Assembly: GCA_964017235.1 (NCBI GenBank)
Contig: OZ024927.1
Coordinates: 53,139,293-53,203,292 of the forward strand
Direction: 5' to 3'
DNA from: Sabellastarte sp. h YS-2021
Taxonomy: Eukaryota > Annelida > Polychaeta > Sabellida > Sabellidae
Length of the DNA: 64,000 bases
Positions 31,401 to 59,336 of this stretch are shown here, piece after piece (the stretch's first letter is position 1; the number at the start of each line of letters is the position of its first letter). The notes beneath the pieces are model-generated. The model ran no database searches and was not told where the DNA came from. It saw only the letters and a program-made list of their open reading frames with translations. Both the position numbers and the translations under genes were made by a program.

Positions 31401-34400
31401 CAAGCCTCTACCAAGGGTCTGTGGTCAGACAGGGAAAAAGGGCTATACATAAATGTTCTAGAGCTGAAGGCGGTTTCTCTGGCCCTTCAAAGGTTCAAGG
31501 ACCAGTGTCAAAACCAAACAATGTTGGTTGCTACGGACAACTCAACAGTAGTAGCCTACATAAACAAACAAGGAGGAACTCACTCGGCGGAGATGTGTGC
31601 TCTCCTGTGGAAGATCATGACCTGGTGCCATCACTACCAGATCATTTTAAAAGCCAGACACATTCCAGGGTGTCTGAATGTGATGGCCGACCTACTGTCC
31701 AGGTCGAACCAAGTCCAGTCAACAGAATGGTCACTGCATCCGCTGGTGTTCAAACAGATCTGTCAAAAGTGTTTCACTCCTCATGCAGATATATTTGCCA
31801 CTCGTCTGAACCACATAGATCCACTGTTCGTATCTCCAGTCCCAGACCAAAATGCTTGGGACATAGATGCTCTGAACATAAACTGGTCGGGTCTCACTGC
31901 TTATGCTTACCCTCCCATGGCTGTCCTTCACAGGGTGATCCAAAAAATTCAGGCAATCCAGTTGTCTGATCATTGTAATAGCTCCAGACTGACCAGGGAT
32001 GCCCTGGTTTTTGGACCTAGTGCAGCTCTCAACAGAGATCCCACTTCAAGTACCAGTGTCAAGAACTCTTCTCAAACAGTCCCACAACTATGTGTTTCAC
32101 AGCAATCCACAACATCTCAACCTTCACGCCTGGTGTCTAGGAGTGGACAGCTCCAAGAACAAGGCTTCTCTGTGGAGGTGGCAGAGAGAATTGCTGCGCC
32201 TCAGAGAAAGTCATCAACAAGGACCATCTACAAGTCAAAGTGGCCTTATTTGAGAAATGGTGCAGAGATAATTAGGTGGATTTCTCCACTCCCTCTGTAA
32301 AGCAAGTCTCAGGCTTCTTTATGTACCTGTACCAATATCTAAACAGGCGCCCTTTGACCATTGATGGTTATAGGACGGCCATTGTTGACACATTGGGCCC
32401 AATGGGGCTCCATATCTCCCAATGTTCAGACCTTAACAGGTTACTCTCCAGTTTTCACAGGGATCATCCCAAAAGTTCCAGGAATCTTCCTAAGTGAAAC
32501 CTTTCTGTTATACTCAATGAGCTCACAAAAGCACCCTTTGAGCCTATGAAAGACACAGACCTCAAACATCTTACCCTCAAAACTGCTTTCTTGCTAGCTC
32601 TGGCCTCCGGCAAGCGCCGCAGTGAAATTCATGCTGGGGTTGCAAACAAAGTATCGAATCTAGGCCAATGAGAAAAGGTTTGCTTTGTTCCTGTCTTCAG
32701 ATTTGATAACCAAAAACCAACTAGCAAGAGAAGGTTCTCAAAGTGTTTCTCCGGTGACTATTCCTGCTCTAACTATCATTGTAGATAGACAATTCAAAGA
32801 AGGCAGGACCTTGTGTCTGGTACAGGCCCTGAGGTACTATTTGGATCGAACCAAAGACCTAAGAGGGTCTCGATCCCTTCTTTTTATCTCCTTTAAGAAA
32901 GGACATACCTCAGACATCAGACCCGCTACACTCTCCTCTTGGCTAAAACAAACTATCCTACTTTGTTACAAACAAGCAGATTAACAAGCCTTGAACCTGG
33001 TCCAAGTCAAAGCGCATGACATTAGGGCCTTCGTGGCCTCTAACGCCTTTTACGGTGGACCAAATCATGCAAGCTTGTCACTGGAAAGCTCACAACACAT
33101 TTACAAATTGTTACCTAAAAGACCTTACTTGGTCAGACAACGACAACAATATGTATCTGGGACCAGTAGTAGCGGCACAACAAGTCCTAGACCCTTTCCT
33201 GCAGACTGCTCATCCTCGGAAAGAAAAGGGGGGGGGGCATATCCGTCGCAGCCAAGTCTTCAGGAGTCTAATCCCAGGGTCTAGGTATTGGTTACCTCCT
33301 CAGGATGTTATGGTAAGGTCTATTATCTATTATTTAACTGTATAATATATTAAGTCTTTTAGTGTACCATCATCTCCTATTTCGGGTGGCAAGTTTATGA
33401 TATTCAAACTTAGGGCTGGTATTCATTACAGTGATGCCCTTGGGGGCTATACTCGCATAAGTGCGCACGGCTGCACTTAATCCTTCAATCAAAACATCCT
33501 GACCATATCCGTACTGTCTTTTATTAATCTTCTGGTTTTTGGCTTCTTACAGGTCCGATTTTCAAAATTGGGGCTCTGTAAGTGGAACTCAGACTGGTTT
33601 TTCAAATATTCATTTTATTATCTCCCGCTGGCGAGATGTATAATTTGCACCATGTGCGTGCGTGCGTGCATGCGTGCCTGGGTCACGCAGTTTTCTCTGA
33701 AACTACTACAGTTACACATTTTTGGTAAATTACTTGTCCTAATGAATTTTTACGCTCTTCAATATTTTTGGGGGGTTTGGTGAACTTTGGCCTACTTTTG
33801 AGTGAGTAATAGCACTTTTACCTAATATAATTATATGGCTTATAACTCTCAAACTATTGCATTTAGAGTATTTTGTTCCAATATGTTGTTCAGCTACTTT
33901 CTCCACAGCTACAACATGGTCAGTACTTTGGAAGTGTATCTCCATAGCTAAGTGAGTAATAGCTACTTTGTCAATTTTTAATGATAACCATAATGAGTAA
34001 ATGGCTTATATCTTCAAAAGTATTGCATCTACACAATTTCTCTCAAATATGTTGTTCATCTACTTTTTTGTGAACTGTAACATATTTAGGTTTCACAACT
34101 GTTGCTCAATCTACAAGTGAGTAATAGCTACTTTATTGCTACTTTTAGTGAAAATGTGAAAAATCATAAATATCTCGCAAAACGTAAGAGATAGAGCAAT
34201 TTCTAGTGAATTTTTGACCCACAGGGTAGTACAAGAGTATCCTATGCTAAGGGGGAAAATTTCAATTTTAGCTACTTTTGGCGGCTACTTTTGAGTGAGT
34301 AATAGCACTTTTACATAGTATAATTATATGACTTATAACTCTCAAACTATTGCATTTAGAGTATTTTGTTCCATATGTTGTTCAGCTACTTTCTCCACAG

Positions 34401-37400
34401 CTACAACATGGTCAGTAGTTTGGAAGTGTATATCCATAGCTAAGTGAGTAATAGCTTCTTTGTCAATTTTTAATGATAACCATAATGAGTAAATGGCTTA
34501 TATCTTCAAAAGTATTGCATCTACACAATTTCTCTCAAATATGTTGTTCATCTACTTTTTTGTGAACTGTAACGTATTTAAGTTTTACAACTGTTGCTCA
34601 ATGTACAAGTGAGTAATGGCTACTTTATTGCTACTTTTAGTGAAAATGTGAAAAATCACAAATATCTCGCAGACCGTAAGAGATAGAGTAGTTTCTAGTG
34701 AATTTTTGACCCACAGGGTAGTACAAGAGTATCCTATGCTAAGGGGAAAAATTTCAATTTTCGCTACTTTTGGTGGCTACTTTTGAGTGAGTAATACCAC
34801 TTTTACCTAATATAATTATATGACTTATAACTCTCAAACTAATTGCATTTAGAGTATTTTGTTGCAATATGTTGTTCAGCTACTTTCTCCACAGCAACGA
34901 CATGGTCAGTAGTTTGGAAGTGTATCTCCATAGCTAAGTGAGTAATAGCTACTTTGTCAATTTTTAATGATAACCATAATGAGTAAATGGCTTATATCTT
35001 CAAAAGTATTGCAGCTACACAATTTCTCTCAAATATGTTGTTCATCTACATTTTTGTGAACTGTAACATATTTAAGTTTCACAACTGTTGCTCAATGTAC
35101 AAGTGAGTAATGGCTACTTTATTGCTACTTTTAGTGAAAATGTGAAAAATCACAAATATCTCGCAAACCGTAAGAGATAGAGCAATTTCGAGCGAATTTT
35201 TGACCCACAGGATAGTACAAGAGTATCCAATACTAAGGGAAAAAATTTCAATTTTCGCCACTTTTGGAGACCATCTTGGATTTTTGTGGAAAATGAAAAA
35301 GTGTGAATATCTCGAAAACCGTAAGAGATAGAGCGATTTCGATCGAATTTTTGACCCATAGGGTAGTACAAGAGTATCCTATCCAAAGGGGAAAAATTTC
35401 AATTTTCGCCACTTTTGGTGGCCATCTTGGATTTTTGCGGAAAATGAAAAAGTGTAAATATCTCGAAAACCGTAAGAGATAGAGCGATTTCGATCGAATT
35501 TTTGACCCACAGTACAAGAGTATCCTATTCAAAGGGGAAAAATTTCAATTTTTGCCACTTTTGGCGGCCATCTTGGATTTTTGCGGAAAATGAAGAAGTG
35601 TGAATATCTCGAAAACCGTACGAAATAGAGCGATTTCGAGTGAATTTTTGACCCACAGGGTAGTACAAGAGTATCCTATTCAAAGGGGAAAAATTTCAAT
35701 TTTCGCCACTTTTGGCGGCCATCTTGGATTTTTGCGGAAAATGAAAAAGTGTGAATATCTCGAAAACCGTACAAGATAGAGCCATTTCGACCGAAGTTTT
35801 GACCCTCAGGGTAGTACAAGAGTATCCTATGCAAAGGGGAAAAATTTCAATTTTTGCCAATTTTGGTGGCCATCTTTGATTTTAGCGGAAAATGAAAACG
35901 TGTGAATATCTCGAAAACCGTACGAGATGGAGTGATTTGAGGCGAGCTTTTTGACCCTCAGGGTAGTACAAGAGTGTCCTATGCAAAGGGGAAAAATTTC
36001 AGTTTTCGCCACTTTTGGCGGCCATCTTGGATTTTAGCGGAAAATAAAACATTGAAAATATCTTCAAAATGGTAAGAGATAGAGCGATTTCGAGCGATTT
36101 TTTGACCCACAGGGTAGTACAACAGTATTCTGTGCCTAGGGGAAAAATTTCAGCTTTCGCCACTTTTGGCGGCCATCTTGGATTTTAGGGGAAAATGAAA
36201 AATTGTGAATATCTCAGAAAAGGTATTTCTTCCCCTTTAATGCTCGGCAGGAGATATACACCGCAGCAGTGGTCTTGTTTATTATTAATTCAAATCTAAG
36301 AAAAATTCACTATTATTCCAGTCTCAGCTGTAATCCCTCCACCGGATGGTTGGATTCAGCATTCAGTTTAACATGGTAAGCTATTGTAGCGCAATAAAAT
36401 TGAAAATGTTAATAACTTAAATGTAGCTTTTTTTATAAGCTACAAGCTTACCATGTGGAACTGAGGAGAGTCCCACCCTGCCTCCCCGCTGTATTCCAGC
36501 TGAGGGGGTATGGGCTAAATTTACAAGGAGAGAAAAAGGGTTAGACGTAAGATTACACTGTTATGGTACACTGTCAGCACAGGGATCCGGTCAATACTAA
36601 ACGTCTATTTTTCTTGGATGTTGGCCAGATGCCTGCGACCTCCTGAGAAAGCATTCAGTTCCACATGGTAAGCTTGTAGCGTGTAAAAGCTACATTGTAA
36701 GTAATTAAAATTTTCAATTTAAAGTATATGGTTGTAGCAGCTTATTAGATGTATTTGAAAGTATTTGAAAAAAGTATTTGAAATTTCAAGTACTTTAGTA
36801 ATGCATTTAAATACAAATACAAACACTTTTTATCATACTTTGTGTTTTTTGCGAGTCTTTGTCCTGGAATTTCTGGCGTTTCGAGTGCTTACTGATTGCC
36901 GTTTTCGGTTAGTTTTGAATAACTGTAATTAAAGGATCGTTCGATTTCTTGGCCATTCTTTCCTCACTTTATTAAAAATATGTAAACGAATTTCTTTTTT
37001 TGACATGCATAGCACACTAACCTATTTAATTTAAATATAACCTTTTGAACTTAAATTACTGATAAGATCTATATGGGCCGGCTACAGCTAAAGACACAAT
37101 TCATCAAGGATGAATTTAATCTCGGATATGAAAGTTTGTATTTTTGCTTAAAGGCTCTTGTCTTTGTAGATATCAGTAACCAACATCTTTTATATAAAAT
37201 AATCATTTTATTTAACAACTGAAGTGGTGTAAATGCTTCAAAATATATGGATTTGTGTTCGAGTTTTGGGTACGGGTTGGCGGTCACTTCATCCATTATT
37301 TTCTTTGCGGTTTATTTGTTTGACAATGACTAGCAGAAATCGTGCGCAGACAACGACTTTACAATAACAGTGACTGCGCGATTCTTGAGGATTTCATTGG

Positions 37401-59225: not shown

Positions 59226-59258
59226 TACTATGGAGAATCCTGACCTGGTGCTCCAGGA
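59226..59258 (+). pseudogene. Captured DIRS RNase H snippet
   Basis: TACTATGG.GAATCCTGACC and TGGTGCTCCAG match DIRS-3 at 7,252-7,283 (31 of 32 positions), the RNase H 'ALLW.ILTWC' region. It sits between the family E core and its right arm. Confidence 0.75.
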
Positions 59259-59336
59259 AACAGGCTCAAGACCGACATATTCACACCTTAACTATGTCCC
59301 GTCTGGGGATACACTGCGTCGAGACGCAATCTCTAG

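Follow-up and report, generated by a model that had tools for sequence, protein, structure and literature searches.

Helitron2 elements, a branch of the rolling-circle transposons, are defined by a 5′ hairpin formed from their 5′ asymmetric terminal inverted repeat (ATIR), for which Bao and Jurka (2013, PMC3627910) noted compensatory changes; a Fusarium paper restates the definition. Their 3′ ATIR lies upstream of a 3′ hairpin, insertion follows TTTT and 5′ truncation is described, but the available part of PMC3627910 does not mention a tandem core. According to Thomas (2014, PMC4067079), Helitron2 lacks an endonuclease domain, and Helentrons encode a Rep-helicase with a C-terminal apurinic/apyrimidinic endonuclease; the non-autonomous Helentron-associated elements (HINEs) of the DINE-1 type have subterminal inverted repeats (subTIRs), an additional inverted repeat (IR), a microsatellite, central repeats and a TT target without duplication. 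In Crassostrea gigas, 11 Cg_HINE elements in one genome have a 5′ subTIR of 11–12 bp, a complementary IR 1–12 bp further on, a microsatellite (GTCY, GTCC, GTCK), a satellite-like core, a 3′ subTIR followed by a palindrome, and oligo-T targets (Vojvoda Zeljko 2020, PMC7492417). Ten autonomous Repbase elements could not, according to that paper, be linked to the Cg_HINE set, and bivalve pearl elements, short arrays of ~160-bp central repeats, are re-classed as non-autonomous Helentrons. Here we analyse six families of tandem-core elements, A to F, in a 64,000-nucleotide stretch of the genome of the annelid Sabellastarte sp. (the window; G000:C1:53139293-53203292), which share these features.

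We assign families A–F to the HINEs of the Helitron2/Helentron branch with a probability of about 0.88, because the published structure matches them point by point and because the genome contains a coding Helentron built to the same plan, here called Fam1; the initial annotation of the window, made from the letters alone, had proposed the same type. A 5′ subTIR with its complementary IR, and a 3′ subTIR followed by a stem-loop, were found in A–E, and for F by way of one right end outside the window. Insertion into T-rich or TT targets without duplication was seen at two empty sites, one of the E-like element E2 and one of a Fam1 derivative, and ends in common with an autonomous Helentron were seen for derivatives of Fam1, with no such partner found for A–F. 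The comparison with DINE-1-type HINEs, which come from other hosts, and with pearl elements is one of structure. The features of canonical Helitron1 (5′ TC, 3′ CTRR, a target between A and T, no 5′ hairpin) do not describe these elements, which have 5′ hairpins and T-run targets, although E and its relative E2 do end in CTAG.

Architecture of families A–F

In all six families a hairpin tip is followed by GC-rich simple sequence, a leader and a tandem core. The elements on the forward strand of the window are:

16983..17335 (+): second B left module and core
33620..36277 (+): A element; decayed left hairpin, GTGCGTGC microsatellite, tandem cores of 492 bp and 151 bp, right arm GGCAGGAGATA at 36246-36256, weak hairpin, end TCTTG
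38188..41475 (+): C element; hairpin AAGCGTCCC/GGGACGCTT, 169-bp core, right arm at 41441-41449, hairpin GTTTTTGC-ATA-GCAAAAAC
39523..41088 (+): A element without left end; 133-bp core, A right end intact; interrupts the C core
43437..45505 (+): F left module with 147-bp cores; joins a B-type core at 44863, B right end at ~45477-45505 (chimera)
47424..48490 (+): B element; hairpin ACAGCCC/GGGCTGT, 146-bp core, right arm GGCTGTGGGGTA (48458-48469), hairpin GCATC-TCT-GATGC
50968..55650 (+): D element; hairpin TCCACCCCCC, GTCCGAT microsatellite, 169-bp core, right arm GGGGTGGACAT (55616-55626), hairpin ACACAT-GATA-ATGTGT
56011..56864 (+): A left module with well-formed hairpin, into which E is inserted
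56865..59336 (+): E element; hairpin GTATCCC/GGGGATAC, GCC microsatellite, cores of 174 bp and 145 bp, right arm at 59305, hairpin TGCGTC-GA-GACGCA, end CTAG before TTT

Left tips were located for A (33620 and 56011-56012), B (47424 and 16983), C (38188), D (50968), E (56865) and F (43437-43438), so that all six tips named in the initial annotation exist. Likewise, the inverted right arm followed by a second hairpin, noted earlier for A–E, was confirmed by reading and scans, with arms at 36246 and 41058 (A), 48457 (B), 41441 (C), 55614 (D) and 59306 (E); in the arm comparison below, left and right come from different copies in the case of A and B. Within the window F lacks a right arm, since its array passes into the B-type core and B right end at 44863-45505. 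Outside the window, an F-type right arm was found at locus L089 (positions 1312-1323, CCGGTGGATACA), which is the complement of window positions 43437-43448 at 12 of 12 letters and is followed by the hairpin GCATCTG-gcca-CAGATGC, a single case spotted in a list of hairpins rather than by a planned search. The window has five B right ends but two B left tips, in line with what the 5′ truncation described for Helitron2 relatives would produce.

A coding Helentron and its derivatives

The genome searched comprises 1.786 Gb in 647 contigs, in which the PF14214 profile gave 24 matches. Four of these loci (L012, L014, L015 and L017) are ~99% identical in DNA, with open frames at the Rep match of 844, 1783, 2245 and 647 aa, respectively. 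They belong to Fam1, a 12.3-kb Helentron with the same blueprint as A–F, tandem core included. Copies C3 and C2, read end to end, have identical left and right end points and are 98.5–99% identical in two long aligned pieces, with lower identity in the repeat-rich left part. Both start AGG[C/T]GGGTTGCGTGTAACCAACCCGCC... directly after TTTTT and finish ...CGCAACCCGCCTTTTGGGGCACCTCTGACCCTCTTG; the hairpin is followed by a GTCCGTCT microsatellite and a 164-187-bp tandem core. Beyond the core, C3 carries a 236-aa frame and then a 2245-aa frame without inner stops, which unites Rep and a PIF1 helicase in a single frame (DUF6570; Helitron_like_N, 3.6e-26; PIF1, 9e-28). Its helicase part matches that of Helraiser (7lcc) at 6.8e-13. 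A pattern search found the motifs PHLH and YIASY in the Fam1 frame, which we take to be catalytic.

Using the 161-bp Fam1 left end as query, 1225 first-look candidates were obtained, and all of the 40 scored (query included) were 99–100% identical over 161 bp. With a pattern that allowed few changes, we then found 28 Fam1 tips in 22 sequences (20 fetched places and two coding copies); five of these are additional tips within an element, and L071 contains one insertion twice. All 28 follow TT and share one arm sequence, three of them with T for C at one site. Four derivatives (L068–L071) are at least 99% identical to Fam1 over the first 161 bp. The right ends of L071 (~758 bp) and L070 (~1154 bp) are 99.2–99.4% identical to that of the coding element, those of L068 (2369 bp) and L069 (1993 bp) 86–88%. 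Since L071 and L070 match coding Fam1 at ~99% at both ends, a Helentron and its passengers have a common blueprint in this genome. Fam1 itself differs from A–F in its arms, which gave no match in the window, and is therefore a model for A–F and not their partner.

Two side observations concern Fam1 tips. Within the tandem core of the coding copies and of three derivatives (L033:2690 and L033:3290; L068, L069 and L070), a further left tip follows a shared flank, ...GTCCATTTGTTCGTTTTT; it looks as though one element had inserted into its own core and had then been amplified. At L077, the T run that borders a B right terminus contains a Fam1 copy, which suggests right ends as possible landing sites.

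Insertion sites

Two empty sites could be compared with their filled counterparts, one for E2 and one for a Fam1 derivative. E2 lies inside the Rep frame of L012, as GTTTATT[ATATCC...TCTAG]TTTTGG, and three uninterrupted Fam1 copies (C3, C2 and C4) read GTTTATTTTGG at this position. The Fam1 derivative sits in the satellite array of L071, as CTTTATT[AGG...CTTG]TTGTTGC, where 12 of 13 other monomers read CTTTATTGTTGC and one reads CTTTATCGTTGC. At both sites insertion was into a T run with a gain of two extra Ts and nothing more, in agreement with Thomas (2014) on HINEs, so that the check for target duplications of fixed length, suggested earlier as a possible refutation, revealed none beyond these Ts.

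This bears on whether A–F could instead be miniature inverted-repeat transposable elements (MITEs) moved by a cut-and-paste transposase. Inverted arms are present at both ends, and DINE-1-like elements were once annotated as MITEs (PMC4067079). However, the right arm lies short of the end with a hairpin behind it, the two empty sites show no duplication beyond TT and the coding element has Rep and helicase, which makes a MITE origin highly improbable.

Hairpin shape and arm letters

When the first 36 nt of each tip were folded as DNA and compared with 1000 dinucleotide shuffles, as the initial annotation had recommended for the first bases, at most 2.1% of the shuffles were as stable for seven of eight tips. 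The exception is the A tip at 33620 (41.9%), whose stem has decayed in that copy; the A tip at 56011 has a folding energy of -12.7 kcal/mol.

Arms were then compared among the seven elements for which both ends are available (A, B, C, D, E, the E-like E2 and Fam1). Left arms match their own right arms at a mean of 9.57 of 10 positions versus 5.88 for foreign pairs (maximum 9, for E2 versus its relative E), and their own hairpin arms at 8.57 of 10 versus 5.45 (maximum 8). Among all 5040 permutations of the arm pairings, the observed sums were reached by the identity alone. In 7/7 elements the left arm pairs with the right arm at least as well as with the hairpin arm, which fits a published proposal in which the right arm displaces the hairpin. 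Arms thus match best within their own element. The end sequences of the six families, called unrelated in the initial annotation, are partly alike in E and F, both starting with GTATCC and both having a similar CCGCCGCCGC...GAGATTTC stretch (by eye).

The initial annotation had called a left hairpin conserved in shape but not in sequence unfamiliar; it is a published feature of Helitron2 and corresponds to the IR of Cg_HINE. From it, recognition of shape by a common Rep/helicase had been proposed, that is, one enzyme would read hairpin shape and T run and mobilise many families whose end letters drift freely. Seven elements do keep both pairings with different letters; from E to E2 all three arms change in a matched way (G-C-C to A-T-T), and the inner stems of A differ by a swapped pair (CCAGGCT/AGCCTGG versus CCGGGCT/AGCCCGG). 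Against this, arms are nearly letter-identical within Fam1 and within F, several Rep lineages are present in the genome, F has no two-sided change and the one double change in A is unpaired. Since the Fam1 derivatives carry the arm letters of their coding relative, recognition by shape alone is unsupported, and we consider it unlikely; partner-specific ends are the simpler reading, but as no partner of A–F was found, a shared Rep keeps some probability. Counts of changes indicate no clear constraint on arms relative to neighbouring sequence: in F (21 copies), 3/336 arm positions are changed, versus 8/271 in the loop, 132/920 downstream and 12/677 upstream in composite copies; in A, 4/120 and 6/120 in the arms versus 2/375 directly after the tip.

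A box shared by leaders and cores

A leader box with a consensus of about TATAACTCGAAAACCGTTAGAG.TA...GATTTCAAATTTGG recurs across the families, 70-132 nt from the tip, and also occurs in coding Fam1. In the window, with positions placed by offsets from the tips, it lies at:

33690-33732: A, weak copy
38272-38314: C
43538-43580: F
47502..47544 (+): B
51100-51142: D
56096-56138: A
56949-56991: E

The motif was seeded by eye from these same sequences, refitted without the family under test and compared with 898 background windows, leaders being scored in tip orientation only. For 11 of 13 leaders the box score was reached by at most 6 of the 898 windows, and all seven families have such a leader; A at 33620 and L007 failed (193/898). 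All seven tested cores have scores reached by at most two windows. Four further cores stand outside this comparison: by motif scan, the E 174-bp and F 147-bp cores are without the box, and the C 133-bp core and that at 60382 carry it. In a plain-shuffle control, seven of ten leaders beat all 200 shuffles, and the scores of A at 33620, E2 and F were reached by 9, 6 and 2 shuffles, respectively.

One explanation is that the box in leader and core is a site bound by Rep or a host factor, comparable to the iterons next to a rolling-circle origin, and that the hairpin marks the nick. The rarity of such scores in the background, the presence of the box in the coding element and its distance from the tip favour a binding site; the seeding by eye, the single orientation, the two failing leaders, the two cores without a box and the three leaders that did not beat every shuffle speak against it, and common descent or exchange of cores accounts for the recurrence equally well. 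We put it forward tentatively and consider it unlikely. The further proposal that the tandem satellite core is functional, with the box of each monomer a sequence-specific docking site across families of different hairpins and arms, and with cores retained and expanded since additional copies would promote mobilisation, we consider improbable. In the accessible part of the oyster satellitome paper, 'conserved boxes' denote element ends and a 156-bp leader common to one group, and no box common to several families was found in the parts of the Helitron and HINE literature surveyed.

Genome-wide copies and points against the assignment

Several observations weigh against the HINE assignment. Copies of F were taken as the window copy plus the next best 20 of 40 scored (1595 candidates). 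In four of them the flanks are unrelated and reach up to the hairpin, with ATT before it; the other 17 share an upstream flank beyond the hairpin and therefore sit in a larger amplified unit. For A, 28 loci were examined, four of them without a readable tip, and the left arm is absent from 6 of the 24 readable copies (by eye). The D tip search returned no match, not even the D copy of the window, and two D-like left modules lie near L013. A duplication of TT is another possible reading of the two extra Ts at the empty sites. On the side of Fam1, the three other close copies have shorter frames (1783 aa, 844 aa cut by E2, and 647 aa), Exo_endo_phos reaches 1.2e-4 at 22.4 bits, below the Pfam cut-off of 24.5, and the 3′ hairpin is weak. 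Finally, the genome searches made for a Rep-helicase with matching ends, as suggested at the outset, yielded Fam1 with its shared blueprint but no coding partner carrying the ends of A–F.

The four bases before A tips, counted in the 17 of 29 sequences matched by the pattern (among them L067, for which parsing began at an incorrect position), are TTAT in 6/17 and TTTT in 5/17 rows. As a separate observation, the flank before the F tip, ...GGAAAGTTAACATAATT (window 43378-43437; L097-L111 and L115), belongs to a larger amplified repeat around F.

Other Rep lineages and further features of the window

Beyond Fam1, we found three lineages with Rep and helicase (L009 at C3:189222133, L021/L022 and L010/L016) and a Rep fragment of a fourth (L013, among HINEs), with ~25–44% protein identity to Fam1. 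L009 was considered as a partner of B, since a full B element lies ~3 kb upstream of its Rep match; this B element carries its own B right end and is thus a separate insertion. Locus f3b has a B-core match but no B tip, and Fam2 (L010/L016) has no hairpin tip at its left homology limit, nor was its right end found. An arm search in three Rep loci (f3b, l9 and f2b) gave AT-rich, chance-like matches alone and also missed the Fam1 positive control, so that it carries no weight. A generic three-arm scan of the window and two Rep loci was swamped by tandem cores and left Fam1 undetected. A search for A–F ends in the 5 kb that follow each of six other Rep matches found inserted B-like and D-like pieces and the F right arm, but no coding partner.

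Two similar blocks in the window (15409-15830 and 44085-44510; GGAAGTG...TTTTCGGTAGATTCTAAA) break different tandem cores and look by eye like an interspersed repeat. A serine/aspartate-rich, coding-like stretch at 46060-46230 (CAGTAGCTCTTCCAGTGA repeat) may represent the final exon of a host gene.

Discussion

As HINEs, families A–F would be mobilised by a Rep-helicase-endonuclease supplied elsewhere, which would nick the T run beside the left hairpin. One strand would be peeled off and copied through microsatellite and tandem core, copying would end close to the right arm, the complement of the left one, and the released DNA would be pasted into another T run without target duplication. We infer the strand direction and the stop signal; pairing of left and right arms may open the left hairpin, as Bao and Jurka (2013) proposed for Helitron2.

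A–F are further HINE families of a known kind, and the hairpin tip had already been published. What the present genome adds is an apparently intact coding Helentron of the same design together with its short derivatives. In the accessible part of the Cg_HINE paper (PMC7492417) no autonomous partner is linked to those elements, and among the literature titles and abstracts surveyed no report linking a coding partner to the tandem-core HINEs of bivalves was found; here, in contrast, a coding Helentron and its derivatives occur together, with arms other than those of A–F. It is plausible that Fam1 represents the type of engine that moves A–F.

Published tandem-core HINEs without a linked engine (PMC7492417) now have a testable counterpart in a young, apparently intact Helentron, a system that comes with deletion derivatives, precisely placed ends and empty sites. 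The analysis further distinguishes the part that varies among families, namely the arms, in matched threes, from the part that recurs, the leader/core box; if the latter is a binding site, it could move the emphasis from shape to sequence.

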